Shown here piece by piece: positions 2,956 through 35,273 of a stretch of DNA of 64,000 bases. Position 1 is the stretch's first letter; every line of letters begins with the position of its first letter. Origin of the DNA: Gloeobacter morelensis MG652769 (GTDB lineage Bacteria > Cyanobacteriota > Cyanobacteriia > Gloeobacterales > Gloeobacteraceae); contig NZ_CP063845.1 in the NCBI RefSeq assembly GCF_021018745.1, forward strand, positions 930,001-994,000. Reading direction: 5' to 3'. The notes beneath the pieces are model-generated. The model ran no database searches. It was not told where the DNA came from and worked only from the letters and a program-made list of their open reading frames with translations. The position numbers were made by a program, and so were the translations under genes.

Positions 2956-4136
2956 TATCGCGGCCCAGCTCCTTCAAAGAGTCCCTGCTTCCAAAGCAAT
3001 CCAGGGAGATCCCCTTCTCTCACCAAAGCTTTCAGATTGAGATCATCAGAAGCACGTGTTATTTTCGTGAAACCTGATTGTTTCGTTAGCCAAAATAGCT
3101 CCTCAAGCTTCACGCCGTTGACAAAATCTGGAGAATGGGTGGATATGAAAACTTGTCCCCCTTTAGACGCATACTGCCGAAATTCCTCAGCCAATTCCAC
3201 AAGTAGCTCTGGATATAACTGATTTTCTGGCTCTTCCACTGCTAATAAAGGGTGAGGGCTCGGATCATAAAGTAATAATAAATAGGCAAACATCTTTATA
3301 GTGCCATCCGACACAAATCTTGCGATAAAGGGATCTTTAAACGCGCCGTCCTGAAATTTCAAAACGATTCTCCCATCCTCCGTCTCAGTTGCCTCGACTT
3401 TGGAAATCCCAGGAACGCGTTGTGACATACGGGAGAGAATTTTATCAAATTCAACTCTATGGTACTCGTACATGAATTGAGCTACCAATGGCAGGTTTTC
3501 TCCGCGCATTGACAAATGCTCAGCGTAGCCAGCATCCTGCACTTCTCGGGCATCACTAATATGAAAATCCGAAATGTGCCAATTTTCAATTAACTTGCGG
3601 AACTCTGCAACTGCTTTGAATCGTTCAAACTGACCTAAGCCTTTTATAGCAAGGATGTCAGCAGAAGCGAGCTTTTGATACTCTCGCTTTTGTTCGTCTT
3701 CTTTGCCACCATAGTCTGCTTCATTGATTATCGCTTCGCCCTCTCCATTTCTAAAATCTAAAAATCGCCACGGTTTACCCTTTTGGCCTCGCCTATACTG
3801 CAGTAATTCTCGCTTAACCACTGGCTGGTTTGTATCGGAAAGACCAATGTGCAACAAATAAGTTACAAGAGGAGCATCATCTTTTATTCTAAATTTAATT
3901 TCTATAACTATCGGACCATTCTCACCTCTAGAAACAACTTCTTTAAAACCTCCTCGCCGCGTTAAAGCCTGTCTCACATTATTGATTAAAGCATCCTTTA
4001 AAAAGCTGAAAACATCAAAGAACGTACTCTTGCCAACACCGTTTGCACCCAAAAAAACGGCCAAATTTGGCAAAGAGGGAATCTCAACGTCCTTGAATAC
4101 TTTGTAGTTCTTGATGCGTATTGACTCGATTTTCAT
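2955..4136 (-). CDS. AAA15-type ATPase (OLD/RecF-like)
   Basis: A 393-residue SMC/RecF-type ATPase. Near the N-terminus, IKNYKVFKD is the usual start of AAA15 proteins and GANGVGKST is the Walker A loop (about residues 32-40). The C-terminal half has a Walker B in LLAVEEPENQLYPEL with the catalytic double glutamate, then VFISTHSPDFVN as the switch histidine. No TOPRIM domain is fused to it; the separate DUF4276 gene that follows with a one-base overlap probably supplies the effector. Such ATPases typically sense a phage or DNA signal and gate a nuclease partner. The start at 4136 is the only one that leaves the N-terminal motif intact. No obvious promoter could be pinned down in the A+T-rich upstream region. 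Confidence 0.88.
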   Translation of the reverse strand: MKIESIRIKNYKVFKDVEIPSLPNLAVFLGANGVGKSTFFDVFSFLKDALINNVRQALTRRGGFKEVVSRGENGPIVIEIKFRIKDDAPLVTYLLHIGLSDTNQPVVKRELLQYRRGQKGKPWRFLDFRNGEGEAIINEADYGGKEDEQKREYQKLASADILAIKGLGQFERFKAVAEFRKLIENWHISDFHISDAREVQDAGYAEHLSMRGENLPLVAQFMYEYHRVEFDKILSRMSQRVPGISKVEATETEDGRIVLKFQDGAFKDPFIARFVSDGTIKMFAYLLLLYDPSPHPLLAVEEPENQLYPELLVELAEEFRQYASKGGQVFISTHSPDFVNGVKLEELFWLTKQSGFTKITRASDDLNLKALVREGDLPGLLWKQGLFEGAGPR

Positions 4137-27077: not shown

Positions 27078-27150
27078 GCGGGCAGGTCATAGCGAATCCC
27101 CGAACGGTGGTATTGGCTGGCCTTGCCAGTAAGCTTGCCTGGGGTCCATC

Positions 27151-27186
27151 GCTTGGTTTACAATGCACCAAGCAAAAGTTTACAAT
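27151..27186 (+). promoter_or_regulatory. Promoter and operator of the STAS-like regulator
   Basis: TTTACA (27157-27162) and TACAAT (27181-27186) make a good sigma-70 promoter with an 18-bp spacer. The inverted repeat GCTTGGT/ACCAAGC (27151-27157 and 27167-27173) overlaps the -35 box and could be the operator. The expected transcription start is at about 27193, the chosen start codon. Confidence 0.6.
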
Positions 27187-27192
27187 GGACGG

Positions 27193-28287
27193 ATGGAGAA
27201 CCTGGACTGGAACCCAGAGATCGTTACCACCGAAGATCCGAAGATCTGGCTGCTGCAGGCTCTCTATGAGAAGCAGCCCAACCCTGTCCAGGTGGTGGCC
27301 GATAAACTTTCGATTACTCGCCAGGCTGCTCACCGGCAGATGGCTAAACTTGTCAAAGATGGATTAGTGCAGGCTACGGGTCATACAAGAGCCAGAGTTT
27401 ATACATTGACAACTGTTGCTAATAAGCAAAAAATTTACTCGCGCTCTAATGGTCTTGATGAGGACCTTGCGTGGAGAGAAGTGTGTCAACCGCTTTTACA
27501 GAACCTTGAAAAGAACAATAATGAAATCTATCAAATATGTTTCTATGGCTTTACCGAGATGTTCAATAATGCCATAGATCACTCTGGAGCCTCTGCTGTG
27601 ACAGCGGAAATCATTCTGACAGGGGCTTACATAGAGTTGCAAATCAACGATGATGGAGTAGGAATTTTCAAGAAGATCAAAGAAGCTTTTAACCTTGAAG
27701 ATGAGCGTCACGCCATCTTCGAATTATCTAAAGGCAAGCTCACCACCGACCCAGACAATCATAGTGGCCAAGGCATTTTTTTTACTAGCCGAGCTTTTGA
27801 TTACTTCGACATATTCTCGCGTGGCTTATTTTTTGCGTGTCACAATACCCAAGATTTGCTGGTCGGAGAAATTGAGGATATGGAAGGTACTTTGGTGACC
27901 ATGAAAGTTGGTTTATTCTCCAACCGGAATTTGGGAGAGATTTTTGCTCGATTTGAGGGTGAGGAAGGAGAAGACGGGTTGCGAGGTTTTGATCGTACAC
28001 AGGTGCCCGTGTCTTTGGCCGCTGCTGGGGAGGACAACTTCGTCTCCCGCTCGCAGGCTAAAAGAGTCCTTGCCCGCGCCCACCAATTTAAGGAGATTAT
28101 TCTAGATTTTGAAGGCGTGGATTATGTAGGACAAGCCTTCGCGGATGAAATTTTTAGGGTTTATACAGCTAACAACCCAGACGTACACATTACCTACATC
28201 CAAGCAAATTCTGAAGTCAAAAAAATGATTAACTGGGCTCTGCATACAGCTCGGGAGAGGAAGCGAGACCAGAAGCAGGAGCCTTAG
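27193..28287 (+). CDS. HTH-ATPase-STAS-like (DUF4325) regulator
   Basis: A 364-residue protein with three parts. Residues 1-75 form a winged helix (VVADKLSITRQAAHRQMAKL). Residues about 100-250 are a GHKL ATPase with an N box (EMFNNAIDHSG), a G1 loop (NDDGVGIFKKI) and a G2-like loop (HSGQGIFFTSRAF), without a histidine box. The rest has a C-terminal STAS-like/DUF4325 domain (EIILDFEGVDYVGQAFADEI). The fusion looks like an anti-sigma or partner-switching type regulator in one chain. Codon use and composition are A+T-richer than both neighbours, suggesting transfer. ATG 27193 is preferred over 27163 because the latter lies within the promoter spacer. Role and ligand are unknown. Confidence 0.8.
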   Translation: MENLDWNPEIVTTEDPKIWLLQALYEKQPNPVQVVADKLSITRQAAHRQMAKLVKDGLVQATGHTRARVYTLTTVANKQKIYSRSNGLDEDLAWREVCQPLLQNLEKNNNEIYQICFYGFTEMFNNAIDHSGASAVTAEIILTGAYIELQINDDGVGIFKKIKEAFNLEDERHAIFELSKGKLTTDPDNHSGQGIFFTSRAFDYFDIFSRGLFFACHNTQDLLVGEIEDMEGTLVTMKVGLFSNRNLGEIFARFEGEEGEDGLRGFDRTQVPVSLAAAGEDNFVSRSQAKRVLARAHQFKEIILDFEGVDYVGQAFADEIFRVYTANNPDVHITYIQANSEVKKMINWALHTARERKRDQKQEP

Positions 28288-28338
28288 ACATTCTCTCTAA
28301 TCTGAGCATCACGCTACAAACCGAGCAAATACCATACT

Positions 28339-30753
28339 TCAATCCAGCTCCAGAGTCCGAAAGTCGCTCACCTGCAGGTACGCTCCCGAAAAGGGAACCG
28401 GCTGCCCGTCTACCCGTGCTCGCCCTACGCGGACACCATGCACAAAAATGCGCACCCCCCGATAAGGAAAGGCGAAATCGCCTTCCCAAGAGCGCTCCAG
28501 CACAAAACCCGCGCCGCACCGGCTGAATCGCAGCCGCTCGATGCGGTTTGCCCCGTAGCCGTCCCCGGCGTCCTCGTATATCGTCCCTTCAAACGCGCCG
28601 GACTCGGGCGCATAGAGGTGCAAAGCCAGATGGCCATCCTCCTCCATCGGCAATACGCTGCCGGCTTTGACCAGCAGCGGAATGCGCTCGATCGGTGCGT
28701 CGAGGCGGATGCTGCCCGGCCCCTCCAGCACCTGATCGTCCCAGAGGTGGTACCAGCGCCCCGCGGGCAAGACGACCTCCCGGGCGCGCTCGCCCTCGCG
28801 CACCACCGGATAGACGGCCAGGGCGTCGCCCAGCAAAAAGGCGTCGTCGATGTCCCACAGCCGCGCGTTGCCCGGATCGGCCCAAAATAGGGGGCGCACC
28901 AGAGGAACCCCGCGTCGGCTGGCCTCCCAGCAGAGCGTGTAGAGGTACGGCAGCAGCCGGTAGCGCAACTTGATGAACGCGCGGGCGATGCCCAGCGACG
29001 GTTCGCCAAAAGTCCAGGGAGCGCGGCTGCGCGAATCGTTGGAGGCGTGGGTGCGAAAGAAGGGCAAAAACGCCGACAACTGCATCCAGCGTATGTATAA
29101 CTCCGACGAGGGATTGCCCCGGAAGCCGCCCGTGTCGGGGCCGGAGTAGGGGATGCCGCACAGTCCCAGTTCGAGCACCTGGGCCACGGTCATGGCGAGC
29201 GCCCCCCAACTGCTCTCGGTGTCGCCGGTCCATGTCCAGGCGTAGCGCTGCAGACCCGCCCAGCCCGCCCGCGAGACGATAAACGGCCGCGCCTCGGGCC
29301 GGAAGGTGCGCAGGCTCTCGTACCCCGCCCGCGCCTGCAATAGACCGTACAGATTGTGCGCCTCGCGGTGATCGCCGCCCCGCCCTTCCATGGAGTGACG
29401 GGTCGGGCGCGGCAGCGATCGGTCGCCCCAGGCGACGAAGGCGGCCGGTTCGTTCATGTCGTGCCAGAAACCGGCGATCCCGAGCGAGAGCAGGTGGCGG
29501 TACTGCTCGCTCCACCAGTGGCGGACCTCGGGGTCACTAAAATCCGGAAAGGCGCACCAGCCCGGCCAGACCGGGGCAATCACCGGTTGGGCGTCGGGGG
29601 TGCTCACAAAGGCCTTGCGCTCCATCCCGTCGCGAAAGATCGGCAGATCCGGATCGGCCTTGATGGCCGGGTTGAGGATGCTCACCAACCGCACGCCCCG
29701 CCGGGCCAGCTCCCGGGTAAATTCGCCCAACAGCGGAAAGCGCCTGGGGTCGATCGTGAACGCCTTGAAATCGTCCATCACATCGATGTCGAGGTGGATG
29801 GCGCTGACGGGAATGTCGTTGGCCTCAAAGGCCCGGGCGACGTTGCGCACGGCCGCCTCGGTCTCGTAACCCCAGCGCGACTGGTGATAGCCCAGAGCCC
29901 ATTTGGGCGGCAACGGCGGCCTGCCGGTCAACTCTGTATAGCGCTCCAGCAGCTTCTCCACAGGACCGATTCCCACGTAATAGCGCAGGGCGCCGCCCTC
30001 GAAGGCGGCGACCGCCTCTTGTTTGAAGGTGAAGGCGGCCGGGAAGGAGTTTTCGTAGAAGACCAGATAACTCCCCTGCGGTTGCAGGCTGATATAAAGA
30101 GGAATCGAGATATAGAGCGGGTCGGCCCCGGGGCCGTAGCGCCCTGCCATGTCGAAGTTCCACATCTGAAAGGCCGTCGCTCCGCCGCCCGCATCGCGGG
30201 CCTGGCGCAAATTGAGGGGAGCGGCCCGCTCGCCGAGGCCATAGATCCGCTCTTCTTCAGCCAGCGACACCCGGTGCACCCAGCCGCCTCTCTGGTGGTC
30301 CGGGGGCAATTCCGCGCGCAGAATCCGCCCATCGGCATCGGCGAAGCGCACCCGGCCGTCCGGAGTGACGCGCACCCGCATTGCTCCCGTGGTCGCTTCG
30401 ATACCCTGGGCACCCGCCTGGACCTCCACGGCCACCGCCGGCCACTCGTCGCGGGCGATGGCGTAGGGCACCGGCAGTCGTTCCGACAACCAGTCGCAGC
30501 GCACCAGGTCCACCGCCAAAAAGCGCACGGTCAGTTCGCTGTGCTCGAAGCGGCAGTGCACACCCCATCTCTCAGTGCGGTGCTCAAGAAGCTTGCCGGG
30601 TCGCTCGAAACCCTGAAGGGCGGGCGGTAGAAATCGTCGTTCAATCCCGTCTCGCCAAAAGGAATATTGCAAGGCCTTGCGGGCGTACCCCAGGTAAAAA
30701 AAGGAGCTGACAAAGTATTGCCACTTTGAGACGATCTTCTGGATGATGCTCAT
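28339..30753 (-). CDS. Glycoside hydrolase family 31 alpha-glucosidase
   Basis: An 804-residue GH31 enzyme. The catalytic nucleophile Asp sits in IAGFWHDMNEPAAF and the acid/base Asp in WTWTGDTESSWGAL. The N-terminal beta-sandwich, the (beta/alpha)8 barrel (PPKWALGYHQSRWGYE near residue 300) and the C-terminal sandwich are all present at the usual length. Substrates are probably alpha-linked glucose oligomers, such as maltose or glycogen fragments; sulfoquinovosidase or xylosidase activity is not excluded. No signal peptide is evident. Convergent with the STAS-like gene, it has no obvious operon partner. Confidence 0.92.
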   Translation of the reverse strand: MSIIQKIVSKWQYFVSSFFYLGYARKALQYSFWRDGIERRFLPPALQGFERPGKLLEHRTERWGVHCRFEHSELTVRFLAVDLVRCDWLSERLPVPYAIARDEWPAVAVEVQAGAQGIEATTGAMRVRVTPDGRVRFADADGRILRAELPPDHQRGGWVHRVSLAEEERIYGLGERAAPLNLRQARDAGGGATAFQMWNFDMAGRYGPGADPLYISIPLYISLQPQGSYLVFYENSFPAAFTFKQEAVAAFEGGALRYYVGIGPVEKLLERYTELTGRPPLPPKWALGYHQSRWGYETEAAVRNVARAFEANDIPVSAIHLDIDVMDDFKAFTIDPRRFPLLGEFTRELARRGVRLVSILNPAIKADPDLPIFRDGMERKAFVSTPDAQPVIAPVWPGWCAFPDFSDPEVRHWWSEQYRHLLSLGIAGFWHDMNEPAAFVAWGDRSLPRPTRHSMEGRGGDHREAHNLYGLLQARAGYESLRTFRPEARPFIVSRAGWAGLQRYAWTWTGDTESSWGALAMTVAQVLELGLCGIPYSGPDTGGFRGNPSSELYIRWMQLSAFLPFFRTHASNDSRSRAPWTFGEPSLGIARAFIKLRYRLLPYLYTLCWEASRRGVPLVRPLFWADPGNARLWDIDDAFLLGDALAVYPVVREGERAREVVLPAGRWYHLWDDQVLEGPGSIRLDAPIERIPLLVKAGSVLPMEEDGHLALHLYAPESGAFEGTIYEDAGDGYGANRIERLRFSRCGAGFVLERSWEGDFAFPYRGVRIFVHGVRVGRARVDGQPVPFSGAYLQVSDFRTLELD

Positions 30754-30895
30754 TGTTGGGCAACGAAGCTCGATGGTGTGAATACAGACAACAACTGCCG
30801 ACAAGCATTCCGATTATCGGGGCAAGGCGGTCTGGCGCTCCATCTGCCTCAGGTCGGATCTGTCGCTCAGGTGGGTTTGGTTGGCCCCGGAGCGC

Positions 30896-31309
30896 TCAGG
30901 ACAGTTTCAGCGACTGCACGACATTGATGAGCGATTCGGTTCCTATCGGTTTGATCAGGTACGAAAAAGCCCCAAGGGCGTAGGCCTGGTCGCTGTCGCT
31001 CTCCAGTGCGGAACTGGAAAGCATCACCACCGGTGTGTCCTTGAGGTGGTCCTGCCGGCGCATCCAGGTGAGCAACTCGAAGCCGCTGACGTGGGGCATC
31101 TGGATATTCGAGATTACCATCACCGGCAATGGATAGCTCTCGCGGTCGGTGTAGGGCGGCTCGCCGCCCAGATAGAGTAGCGCCTCGCGTCCGTCCAGGA
31201 CCACTTTGAGTGCAAAATCGAGCTGCCCCTGGCGAAAGGCCCTTTCCACCATCACCACGGCCGCCGGGTTGTTCTCCACCAGCAAAATCGTCCGCCGCTC
31301 CGCCCTCAT
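30896..31309 (-). CDS. Degenerate receiver (pseudo-response regulator)
   Basis: A 137-residue receiver of the Rcp1 type, from ATG 31309. The conserved fold is clear, but two key acidic residues are gone: the acidic pair reads VENNP (E12, N13) where a functional receiver has ED, and the phosphoacceptor position in VMVISNIQMP is Asn68 instead of Asp. The switch Ser (VVMLSSSA) and Lys (YLIKPIG) remain. It is thus unlikely to be phosphorylated at the usual site, and may act by protein binding. It is next to a kinase of the same type and its sister receiver (33031-33450). Confidence 0.9.
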   Translation of the reverse strand: MRAERRTILLVENNPAAVVMVERAFRQGQLDFALKVVLDGREALLYLGGEPPYTDRESYPLPVMVISNIQMPHVSGFELLTWMRRQDHLKDTPVVMLSSSALESDSDQAYALGAFSYLIKPIGTESLINVVQSLKLS

Positions 31310-31500
31310 CGCTGCGCTGATTGCCTCAAAATGCCCAATACAGGGTACCGTACCATGTGACCTGTACCGATGAACCCAAAGTCCCTTTGCACCGCCGGCC
31401 GCTTCTAGAAGTTTTTGATAGCAGCCCCAATGCCTGGGAAAATGAAAAACACTCCTTTGCGCAGAGTCGCTCCTCACCAAATTTCAAGCAAAGTTAAGCT

Positions 31501-33003
31501 ATGCCGTCCCAATCCACCTTCATGGCCAGTCCAGACCTGCGCATCATTCTCATCGACGACAACCCCGGCGATCGGCTGCTTGCCTTGCGGGAGCTGACCC
31601 AGGAGTTTCCCAACCTGCAAGCCGAGCAAATCACCGACCAGGCGGCCTTCGAAGGTGCTCTGGCGACCCAGCGCTTCGATGTGGTGATTACCGACTACCA
31701 GCTGCACTGGGGAGACGGACTGCAGGTGCTGCGGCGGGTCAAGCGGCGCTTTCCGGACTGCCCGGTGATCATGTTCACAAACAGCAGCAACGGTGAACTG
31801 GCTGCCCAGGCGATGAAGGATGGGCTGGACGACTACGTGACCAAGTCTCCCCGGCAGTACATCCGGCTGGCGGGAGCGGTACGCTCGGCGCTTGCCTTCA
31901 CCCGGGCCAACCGGCGCGTCGAGCGGTTGCAGTCGCGCCTGCAGACGCTGCTCAACCGGCTGCACGTCGGCGTGTTTCGGGCGAGTGTGGGCGGCCGGCT
32001 CATCGAGTGCAACATCGCCTTTTTGCAGTTGCTGGGCTTCACTTCGAGCGGACAAATCCAGCAGTTGCCCTTCGAGCAGCTGTACTGCCCACCGCCGGAC
32101 GGTGCCCCGGAGGGCTACTGGGAGAACGAGATTTTACTGCAGCGGCCGGACGGCAGCGAACTGTGGGTGCTGTTGAGCGCCACGCTCAGCGCTGGGGAGG
32201 ACGGCGGCATCATCGACGGACTGATCGAGGATATCAGCGCCCGCAAGCAAAACAGCGAACAACTGGAAAGGCGGGTGCGCGAACGCACCGTGCAGTTGGA
32301 GGCGGCCAACCAGGAGTTGGAGGCATTTACCTACTCGGTCTCCCACGACTTGCGCGAGCCCCTGCGCAACATGCAGGGATTGGCCCAGGCGCTGCTTGAA
32401 GATTTTCCCGCCCAATTGTCCCCTACCGCCCACCAGTACGCTCAACTGATCGTCCGCTCCAGCCAGCAGATGGACGCGCTCATCCAGGATCTGCTCACCT
32501 ACAGCCGCCTGGGACGAGCCGACACCCACCCGCAACCGGTCAATCTCAACACGGTGATTTCCGCCGCGCTCACCCAGCTGCAGACCAAACTGCAGGAAGC
32601 CGCAGCCGAGGTGCAGGTGGATAGTCCGCTTCCGGAGGTGCACGGCCACTTCAATACCCTGGTTCAGGTTCTGCTCAACTTGCTGACCAACGCCATCAAG
32701 TTCGTCGCCCCGGGCGTTGCTCCCCGCGTGCGCATCCGCGCAGACGTACACGACCGGGGAGGCTCCCGCTGGGTGCGGCTGTGGGTGGAGGACAACGGCA
32801 TCGGCGTGTCTCCCCAGAACCACCAGCGCATCTTCCGCGTCTTCGAACGGCTGCACGGCAGTGAGACCTACCCCGGTACCGGCATCGGCCTGGCCATCGT
32901 GCGTAAGGGCATTGATCAACACGGGGGCCGGGCGGGAGTCGAGGCGGATCTGGGGCAGGGTAGCCGCTTCTGGGTAGAGCTGCCGACGGTCTCAGGCGGG
33001 TGA
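31501..33003 (+). CDS. Hybrid-type histidine kinase (REC-PAS-kinase)
   Basis: A 500-residue soluble histidine kinase with an N-terminal receiver (Asp65 in VVITDYQLHWGDG), a PAS-type domain (about 145-260) and a kinase core. His282 lies in YSVSHDLREPLRNM, the H box of phytochrome-like kinases; the N box (VLLNLLTNAIKFV), G1 (VEDNGIGVSPQ), and GTGIGLAIV complete it. A second start at MASPDL is possible. No chromophore-binding GAF domain is present. It lies between a degenerate receiver and a canonical one, on opposite strands, which suggests a local phosphorelay. Confidence 0.92.
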   Translation: MPSQSTFMASPDLRIILIDDNPGDRLLALRELTQEFPNLQAEQITDQAAFEGALATQRFDVVITDYQLHWGDGLQVLRRVKRRFPDCPVIMFTNSSNGELAAQAMKDGLDDYVTKSPRQYIRLAGAVRSALAFTRANRRVERLQSRLQTLLNRLHVGVFRASVGGRLIECNIAFLQLLGFTSSGQIQQLPFEQLYCPPPDGAPEGYWENEILLQRPDGSELWVLLSATLSAGEDGGIIDGLIEDISARKQNSEQLERRVRERTVQLEAANQELEAFTYSVSHDLREPLRNMQGLAQALLEDFPAQLSPTAHQYAQLIVRSSQQMDALIQDLLTYSRLGRADTHPQPVNLNTVISAALTQLQTKLQEAAAEVQVDSPLPEVHGHFNTLVQVLLNLLTNAIKFVAPGVAPRVRIRADVHDRGGSRWVRLWVEDNGIGVSPQNHQRIFRVFERLHGSETYPGTGIGLAIVRKGIDQHGGRAGVEADLGQGSRFWVELPTVSGG

Positions 33004-33030
33004 AGCCCTCAATCCCACGATTACTCAGGC

Positions 33031-33450
33031 TCACGCCGTCTGGAAGGAACTAAGCACTTCTGCCAGAGTGTCGGCCGCCAGGGGTTTGAGCAGATAGAAG
33101 TAGGCCCCCATCTGGTAGGCGCGCTCGAGTTCGCGGTTGCCCGTGCCGGTCAACACGAGCACCGGCAGGTCTTTGAGTTCCGGACGCCTCTGGATCCAGG
33201 CGAGCAGTTCAAGGCCGGATGACCCCGGCAAGCGCAGGTCCGTGACCACGATCCTGGGTAAGGGAAAGTTCTCGCGATCAGCGTAGCGGCTCGCACCTTC
33301 GAGGTAGCGCATCGCCTCCTCAGCGGAGCTGACCCAGTGGCACTCGCTGTCGGCTGACGCCTTGCAGAAGGTGCGCTCGATCATCAGCGAATCGATGGAG
33401 TTGTCCTCTACCACCAGTACAACGTTACGGGCACGAGCTTCCATCTTCAC
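33031..33450 (-). CDS. Rcp1-type response regulator
   Basis: A 139-residue (or 137 from the second Met) stand-alone receiver. All key residues are present: VLVVEDNSIDSLM has the acidic pair, IVVTDLRLPGSSG the phosphoacceptor Asp71, VLVLTGTGN the Thr and YLLKPLA the Lys. The layout matches Rcp1 regulators that accept phosphate from bacteriophytochromes. It is convergent with the kinase just upstream, likely its source of phosphate, and paralogous to the degenerate receiver at 30896-31309. Confidence 0.93.
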   Translation of the reverse strand: MKMEARARNVVLVVEDNSIDSLMIERTFCKASADSECHWVSSAEEAMRYLEGASRYADRENFPLPRIVVTDLRLPGSSGLELLAWIQRRPELKDLPVLVLTGTGNRELERAYQMGAYFYLLKPLAADTLAEVLSSFQTA

Positions 33451-33722
33451 TTCTCCCTGGCACTAGGTTCAGCTACAAAAAACAGTTGCTCCATACGAGT
33501 ATGTTCGACGCGACCGCAGCCTCATCACTATCCAAAGACAGGTTTTCAAGAAGTATCGCCGATCCCGCCGGTCGGCGGCTCACCTGCCTGAAGTAGCAGC
33601 GCTCAATCTATCCGTATACCCCCTGCTGCACAGGGCATGCCAGCAAAGCGGTGCTAAGATAAAGAAAGTTTACATTGACCGGTTCAGCCTCTGCCCCGGT
33701 CGGCTCGACAGGACACAGACCG

Positions 33723-34247
33723 GTGCAAACGCTCACTCAATCTTCCGAATCGCTGATCTCGCGCCTGTTCCAGCGCTCCGCGGGGCACTGGCGCTCCGAG
33801 CGACGCTACTACACGCTGCCCGAGGGCCGAACCCAGGAGATGGAGAGCTTGATCGAGATTGCCTACTTGCCCTCGGGCAGTGCAGAACTCGTTGAACTAG
33901 CCGAATTGCACAGCTTGCCGCCCGAAATGCAACTGGTCTGCGGAGCCAAAATCCACTGGCGCAGTAGTGCGAAGCTGACTGGCCGCGAGCAGTCCGAGGG
34001 GATCACACTATTCGGGGCACTCGGGGACACCCTCTACCGCGATCGGGGTTTTGCCACCCGCAAGCCGGTCATCGCCCTTTACCGGTTCACCGACCTGAAC
34101 ACGTTGCACCTGCGCACCGAGTACAACGGTTCGGTATTCGAAGAAGAACTCAAACTGGTCGGCGAACGCTACCGCACGCGCCAGACAATCATCTCCCGCC
34201 TCGGCGAACAGCAGATGATTGGCCAGTATCTAGAAAAGCGCATCTAG
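33723..34247 (+). CDS. cpcS: CpcS/CpeS-family phycobilin lyase
   Basis: A 174-residue protein of the S-type phycobilin lyase family, which attaches phycobilins to allophycocyanin or to beta-subunits at Cys84-type positions. RLFQRSAGHWRSERRYYTLP is the diagnostic N-terminal motif, and YRFTDLNTLHLRTEYNG lies in the C-terminal half. The start is ambiguous: an open frame reaches a TTG at 33675, but GTG 33723 (MQTLTQSSESL) places the family motif at the usual distance. The next gene on the opposite strand is pdhB, separated by a hairpin. With CpcT at 24.2 kb, this supports phycobilisome assembly in this organism. Confidence 0.9.
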   Translation: MQTLTQSSESLISRLFQRSAGHWRSERRYYTLPEGRTQEMESLIEIAYLPSGSAELVELAELHSLPPEMQLVCGAKIHWRSSAKLTGREQSEGITLFGALGDTLYRDRGFATRKPVIALYRFTDLNTLHLRTEYNGSVFEEELKLVGERYRTRQTIISRLGEQQMIGQYLEKRI

Positions 34248-34253
34248 TTTAGG

Positions 34254-34287
34254 TTCCAGGGGGCAAGCGCCTCTCTGCCGCCTGGAA
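34254..34287. terminator. Hairpin between convergent cpcS and pdhB
   Basis: TTCCAGG (34254-34260) pairs with CCTGGAA (34281-34287) around a 20-base loop in the 42-bp gap between two convergent genes. There is no T run, so it may be a weak two-way terminator. Confidence 0.45.
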
Positions 34288-34289
34288 TC

Positions 34290-35273
34290 TTAAACGCGCA
34301 GGGCAAGCATCTCCTCGACAGCTTTGACGATATCGTGCGGCTGCGGGATCACCGTCGCCTCCATCCGGCCGTTGTACGGCACCGGCACATCTTTTGAGGC
34401 CAGACGCACTACCGGCGCGTCCAGATAATCAAAATAGTGCTCGTCGATACTTGCGACGATCTCCGCACCCACACCCCCGGACTTCATGTCCTCCTCGACA
34501 ATCACCACCCGGTGCGTCTTTTTGAGCGAACGGCCAATCGTCTCCAGGTCCAACGGCTTCAGCGCTATCAGGTCGATCAGCTCCACATCGATATCGCGCG
34601 CGGCCAGCTCCGCCAGCGCCTCGCTGCAGTGGTGGCGCATCCGCCCGTAGGTCAGCACCGTCACATCGCGGCCTTCTTTGACCATTTCGGCTTTGTCCAG
34701 AGGCAGCAGGTACTCCGCCTCGGGGATATCCTCCTTGAGGTTGTACAGCAGCACGTGCTCGAAAAACATCACCGGGTTGTCGTCGCGGATCGCCGCTTTG
34801 AGCAGGCCCTTGGCGTTGTAGACGGTCGAGGTGTGCACGATCTTGAGGCCGGGGACGTTGTTGAAGTAGCCTTCGAGTCTTTGGGAGTGCTCGGCTCCCA
34901 GTTGTTTGCCGACCCCACCGGGACCGCGCACGACCATCGGGATTTTGAACTGGCCGCCGCTGGTGTAGCGCAGCATGCCGCCGTTGTTGGCGATCTGGTT
35001 GAAGGCGAGCAGCAAAAAGCCCATGTTCATCCCTTCGATGATCGGCCGCAGTCCGGTCATCGCGGAGCCAACGGCCAGTCCCGTGAAGGCGTTTTCGCAG
35101 ATGGGCGTGTCGAGCAGTCGCAGTTCGCCGAATTCTTTGTAGAGGTCCTTGGTGGCTTTGTAGGAGCCGCCGTAGTGACCGACGTCTTCGCCGAGGACGT
35201 AGACGTTCGGGTCGCGGCGCATCTCTTCGGCCATGGCGTCTTTGAGCGCTTCGTAAAACAGTTTGACCGGCAT
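34290..35273 (-). CDS. pdhB: Pyruvate dehydrogenase E1 beta subunit
   Basis: A 327-residue E1 beta subunit of the pyruvate dehydrogenase complex, which decarboxylates pyruvate and hands the acetyl group to lipoate on E2. [33 protein letters not shown] and [20 protein letters not shown] are typical. Length is that of the cyanobacterial or plastid type. It is four bases after pdhA and translated with it; a GGAGG site lies in the pdhA tail. The E2 and E3 genes are not in this window. Confidence 0.95.

Follow-up and report, generated by a model that had tools for sequence, protein, structure and literature searches.

A receiver with asparagine at its phosphoacceptor position, conserved between Gloeobacter genomes beside a REC-PAS histidine kinase and a canonical paralogue

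Gene Organization of the Locus

Why should a receiver domain with Asn in place of its phosphoacceptor Asp be kept beside a histidine kinase and a canonical receiver? This question is raised by a locus of Gloeobacter morelensis MG652769, located in the window analyzed here, i.e., the whole stretch of 64,000 nucleotides of contig NZ_CP063845.1 from which all positions below are counted. The features of interest are the following:

30896-31309, minus strand: N, an Rcp1-type single-domain candidate pseudo-receiver of 137 aa, with its ATG start at 31309
31310-31500: the N-K intergenic region of 191 bp, between the divergent genes N and K
31501-33003, plus strand: K, a REC-PAS-HisKA-HATPase histidine kinase, divergent from N
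33031-33450, minus strand: S, a canonical Rcp1-type single-domain receiver with the motifs VEDNS and VVTDLRLP, convergent with K

The stop-to-stop reading frame of N is longer than the 137 aa counted from its ATG, and the product matches PF00072 (Response_reg) with an E value of 9.6e-16 and 58.4 bits against a cut-off of 30.2; it has no output domain, the receiver being the only domain found by Pfam. The initial annotation of this DNA had described the gene as a receiver separated by a REC-PAS kinase from a canonical sister, a description borne out by the open reading frame, the Pfam match, the domain order of K, and the motifs of S. In K, the H-box (SHDLREPLR) and the ATPase domain appear intact, and its own REC possesses the Asp (TDYQL). 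Both N and S are encoded on the strand opposite to K and share no operon with it, N being divergent and S convergent. A promoter and terminator scan of positions 30700-33700 was uninformative, and the lone sigma-70-like match in the N-K gap (31415-31443, plus strand) is weak and constitutes no evidence of a promoter.

The order N-K-S is preserved in the four genomes of the Gloeobacter genus group, as is a gene encoding a CpeS-like phycobiliprotein lyase (33675-34247) adjoining S, which may have a functional link with the K/S circuit. On the other side, a GH31 gene lies beside N in three of these genomes, and no GH31 match was found in the 15-kb locus of the most distant one. At lower coordinates of the window, a 374-aa gene (27082-28338) was assigned to the STAS-like DUF4325 family, with weaker matches to a MarR-type HTH and to HATPase. 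The alignments with genomes G005 and G004 stop at 27081 and resume at 28339, the stretch of this gene being missing there, an apparent insertion or loss relative to both genomes.

Residues of the Phosphorylation Pocket

Pocket positions are named after PMC12632262. The class-level sample comprised 388 genomes, 214 of them with a match at E 1e-13 or better, and residues were read for 72 receiver rows, chosen mainly by similarity to N and including the window's own N and S and four weaker paralogues of the genus group. The canonical N-like set consists of 43 of the 72 rows; left out of it were 10 S or S-like rows, six SN-type rows (Ser followed by Asn at the acceptor), and a further 13 that were divergent, partial, or paralogous, among which L100 and L118 are also Asp-less.

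The key residues of N are Glu12 (DD1), Asn13 (DD2), Ala17 (DD+4), Ser67 (D-1), Asn68 (acceptor), Ser98 (T), Tyr117 (K-3), and Lys120 (K), with Pro at D+4 and Gly at D+8. The initial annotation had reported two changes of Asp to Asn, one at the acceptor and one in the acidic pair. The first stands: the acceptor motif is VISN-IQMP, and the phosphorylatable Asp is absent from the N proteins, which show VISN or VMSN instead, whereas Asp occupies the acceptor position in 43/43 canonical rows. The second applies in part, as only DD2 of the pair (within VENNP) is Asn, the Glu at DD1 being the norm (43/43 canonical relatives), and the DD2 Asn is found in the three close genomes of the genus group, while the most distant orthologue (60% identity) has Asp (VEDNP). 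The Lys, which the annotation had listed as retained, was read in the alignment and is unchanged in all four N proteins, together with the D+4 Pro, the D+8 Gly, the Ser at T, and the Tyr at K-3. A further change, absent from the earlier list, affects DD+4, one of the positions reported to distinguish receivers from pseudo-receivers (PMC12632262), with Ala in the four N proteins versus Asp in 40 of the 43 canonical relatives. At D-1, the four N proteins share a Ser with the two distant SN-type proteins described below, versus Leu in all 43 canonical relatives, and the canonical sister S has Thr.

At 12 positions, all four N proteins differ from residues kept in at least 80% of the canonical rows. 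These departures cluster round the beta3-alpha3 loop (66-69, 71, 73, 74, and 79; the others are 17, 22, 98, and 102), mostly off any known partner-binding face, so that the partner of N is not readable from them. Position 22, which is Glu in three N proteins and Lys in one, and Gln in 37 of the 43 canonical relatives, is Glu in S as well; this is at best a hint that N and S could address the same kinase.

Among aspartate-less receivers (ALRs), Asn has been reported as the second commonest acceptor replacement (16%), with DD1 acidic in 65% and DD2 in only 29%, the Lys position basic in 70%, and both Y/T residues kept in 44.5% (PMC4395418). N retains the acidic DD1, the Lys, and both Y/T residues, with a non-acidic DD2 in three of the four proteins, and, judged by these residues, the retention of DD1 and Lys with loss of DD2 is a pattern frequent in such receivers. 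Asp-less receivers have a share of about 4% among receivers, and about 6% of a representative bacterial set are pseudo-receivers (PMC12632262); therefore one such domain in a genome is unsurprising in itself; the case against chance comes from the conservation of N and of its gene neighborhood.

Predicted Structure and Closest Known Proteins

The AlphaFold2 model of N, built on an alignment of 33 sequences, was predicted with high confidence (pLDDT 92.0, pTM 0.87) and, while such a model cannot show binding, it presents the alternating strands and helices of a receiver, with Asn68 at the end of the third strand. A Foldseek comparison with the PDB placed Rcp1 on top, the best 12 of 50 matches all being phytochrome response regulators, and the best PDB match by sequence was 5BRJ (E 4.2e-19). 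The Rcp1, RcpA, and bacteriophytochrome response regulators that top the sequence and fold matches (PDB 1I3C, 1K68, 5BRJ, and 6XVU) include single-domain receivers like N, and in the three alignments shown (5BRJ, 6XVU, and 5IC5) they possess Asp at the position of the Asn of N. Rcp1/RcpA-type regulators partner phytochrome kinases; a histidine kinase (HisKA, HATPase) adjoins N in the four genus-group genomes, but in K Pfam detected REC and PAS and no phytochrome domain. The kinase part of K may be Cph1-like.

In its lack of the acceptor Asp, N resembles known Asp-less receivers and pseudo-receivers such as RitR, CmrT, FrzS, and NblR (PMC4395418, PMC12632262), from which it differs in being a single-domain Rcp1-type protein, encoded divergently from a REC-PAS kinase and beside a canonical paralogue. 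The CmrRST system of Clostridioides difficile, as described in PMC12632262, also encodes a kinase, a true receiver, and a pseudo-receiver together, in the manner of K, S, and N; however, the Cmr genes form one operon and their regulators belong to the OmpR family, whereas N and S show a receiver domain only. The N locus was not mentioned in the titles and abstract beginnings of the papers listed on Gloeobacter two-component or receiver proteins and on cyanobacterial Rcp1-type or pseudo-receiver proteins. N adds a further member to a class already described, in an informative setting.

Conservation and Selection in the Gloeobacter Genus Group

The order-level search covered nine genomes and recovered N in the four of the Gloeobacter genus group (identities of 100, 99, 97, and 60%), the best match in the remaining five having an E value of 1.5e-12 or weaker. 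The acceptor Asn, whose conservation in relatives the initial annotation had left to be checked, is present in all four genomes, including the 60% orthologue, and is encoded by AAT in three and by AAC in the fourth, a silent difference; the random substitution that the annotation had linked with decay is not seen at this position. The most economical history of these residues would be a loss of the acceptor Asp that preceded the divergence of the four genomes sampled, followed by that of the DD2 Asp in one sublineage.

Nei-Gojobori dN/dS ratios against the distant genome, which are rough because silent sites are near saturation (dS about 1.0-1.3), were 0.24-0.25 for N, 0.20-0.24 for K, and 0.24-0.26 for S, and a value for N like those of its neighbors argues against decay. 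Among the three close genomes, N showed ratios of 0.25-0.32, computed from just 4 to 9 changes per pair with few silent ones among them, and both K (0.09-0.16) and S (0.06-0.18) lay below it. This closer comparison leaves room for selection on N being a little more relaxed than on K and S, not for decay.

At the DNA level, about 30700-32300 matches G005 at 95-100% per 100 bases, a stretch that takes in N, the gap between N and K, and K up to about its middle; from about 32400 to 34300, the identity is 86-97%. Over about 30700-32300, the identity to G004 is 90-100% and less conspicuous. Selective constraint on the DNA of N alone was rejected as an explanation of the few silent changes in N, as the high identity to G005 runs well into K, and a local recombination tract is likelier, with about 30700-32300 perhaps exchanged between species.

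Related Receivers in Other Cyanobacteria

The acceptor Asp was found in 64 of the 72 receiver rows. The eight rows without it are the four N orthologues, two SN rows, one TN row, and one SQ row, a count in which SN types are possibly underrepresented, weaker matches among the 214 genomes lying outside the 72 rows. The four Asp-less proteins from outside the genus group are the following:

L091 (genome G169): SN-type, VISNMKMP, with Ser at the Thr position
L104 (genome G199): SN-type, ILSNMRMP, with Ser at the Thr position
L100 (genome G027), 2992-3438: TN-type, ILTNKDMP
L118 (genome G158), 2960-3400: SQ-type, with Gln at the acceptor, Asn at DD2, and Tyr at the Thr position

The two SN-type proteins rule out the SN receiver as a trait of the window's genus only. 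The gene adjoining L104 encodes a REC-PAS-GAF kinase with a K-like REC. Beside L091 come first the gene of a PAS/GAF kinase and then that of a REC-PAS kinase resembling K; the distance between the SN gene of L091 and an S-like tandem receiver is about 8.7 kb, and a canonical N-like receiver is present elsewhere in the L091 genome. No K-like kinase match was found in the 6.4-kb locus of L100. Genome G199 also encodes a degenerate Rcp1-type receiver (L117, 3020-3475) in which the acceptor is still Asp, DD2 is Ser, and the Thr position is occupied by Asp.

No further close copy was found with the L091 protein in the 388 genomes or, under a strict E cut-off of 1e-36, in 42 genomes of its own family, nor with the L104 protein in 36 genomes of its family (cut-off 1e-34); both family sets lie within the 388-genome sample and add no genomes to it. 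A second tree of 62 of the 72 rows, with the trait columns removed and ten long, partial, or paralogous rows dropped (the SQ row among them), paired L091 with L104 (98/95) and recovered the four N proteins as a clade (100/96). A single origin of the SN types was not rejected (AU p 0.435), and parsimony required two changes, or three with the TN row. It is possible, although doubtful, that the SN receivers of the genus and those of the two distant families represent one ancient pseudo-receiver lineage ([IML]SN[IM][QKR]MP, the Thr position being Ser), which was retained alongside REC-PAS kinases and would serve a cyanobacterial relay as a dedicated brake or scaffold working without phosphate.

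In the non-Gloeobacter loci L059-L084, scanned with flanks of about 1.5 kb and with one locus truncated, a match to the HisKA/ATPase part of K with at least 50% identity was found in 26/26 and a match to its REC in 20/26. The neighborhood is not universal, since a K-like match was absent in four of the 20 further loci L085-L104 (L094, L095, L100, and L101). To judge by these neighborhoods, receivers of this family would usually be phosphorylatable, of the Rcp1 type, and surrounded by K-like kinases. The Asp is nearly always kept in the other cyanobacteria sampled, and such circuits therefore need no pseudo-receiver in general.

Proposed Role and Alternative Explanations

The conserved acceptor Asn, the preserved linkage of N, K, and S, and the dN/dS of N, similar to those of K and S, favor N as a maintained pseudo-receiver derived from an Rcp1-type response regulator and acting by direct protein contact in the K/S circuit, a reading in which our confidence is evenly balanced. 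The initial annotation had proposed that N may signal without phosphate, which agrees at the sequence level with the conserved acceptor Asn, purifying selection, and the retained fold and switch residues. Without a canonical phosphate acceptor but with the predicted receiver fold and these switch residues, N would most likely bind the dimerization and phosphotransfer helices of K, in competition with the phosphorylatable S; alternatively, it could pair with S through the alpha4-beta5-alpha5 face. We infer that, by such competition or by S:N heterodimers, the level of N would set the amount of phosphate reaching S or staying on it. Competition for K, also raised by the initial annotation, is plausible because the association of N, K, and S persists in four genomes, including one in which N is flanked by a different gene.

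In the H-box of K, positions H+1, H+4, and H+7 are Asp, Glu, and Arg, respectively. Residues at these positions have been linked with the activity of phytochrome kinases or with their binding of receivers (PMC8292422), and from this agreement we infer that K is a competent kinase. In the models of the same work, the alpha1 helix of the receiver is set on the DHp helices; non-cognate receivers have been reported to sequester kinases (PMC10368727), and binding of the kinase or heterodimers have been proposed for the pseudo-receiver of CmrRST (PMC12632262). By analogy, these precedents favor a phosphate-free contact role for N in the K/S circuit.

Phosphate might nevertheless enter N by another residue, as the initial annotation had also considered; this and a target beyond the K/S circuit are the strongest alternatives. 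If Ser67, just before the acceptor Asn, were phosphorylated by K or by a Ser/Thr kinase, N would still be a phospho-switch, an explanation favored by the Ser that marks D-1 in the SN types and by the retained Glu at DD1 and Lys, and resembling the case of CheY D57N, which is reportedly phosphorylated on Ser56, in the same geometry as Ser67 of N. Nonetheless, we consider it unlikely, as a hydroxyl at D-1 is not special by itself (CheY has Ser and the canonical S has Thr there), and the Asn at DD2 in three genomes is expected to weaken the binding of Mg2+, normally needed for phosphotransfer. Deamidation of the acceptor Asn to Asp, which would make N a delayed or age-dependent receiver, appears very improbable: the Asn is followed by Ile (by Met in the two distant proteins) and not by Gly, a non-Gly residue is expected to slow Asn deamidation, and the DD2 Asn of three genomes would still weaken the pocket afterwards, even if one receiver is reported to have reverted from Asn to Asp at its acceptor, as cited in PMC4395418.

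N could also be a stand-alone, constitutively active pseudo-receiver with its target elsewhere, the neighborhood of K controlling only its expression. The divergent transcription of N and K would suit this arrangement, many pseudo-receivers are hypothesized to be active as synthesized, and the N proteins uniformly have Ile at K+2 (four of four), a residue among those said to shift CheY to active forms (PMC12632262); however, Val, on the same list, is frequent at K+2 in canonical relatives, so this position is not diagnostic, and the absence of an output domain and the linkage to K and S kept in all four genomes make such a role rather unlikely. That N is simply a decaying gene is scarcely credible. 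The second active-site change (DD2) in one sublineage and the higher close-genome dN/dS of N, based on few changes, would fit decay, but the ratio against the distant genome is about 0.25, like those of K and S, with no pair above 0.32, the frame is open with the predicted fold kept, and the acceptor Asn persists in the four genomes across a silent codon difference; from dN/dS and conservation, decay was judged unlikely.

As a maintained pseudo-receiver, N represents a minimal case, comprising one receiver domain with no output domain, a neighboring kinase, and a canonical paralogue. The natural series formed by these proteins, with DD2 intact in one species and lost in three, would allow the contribution of each step to be measured in vitro.
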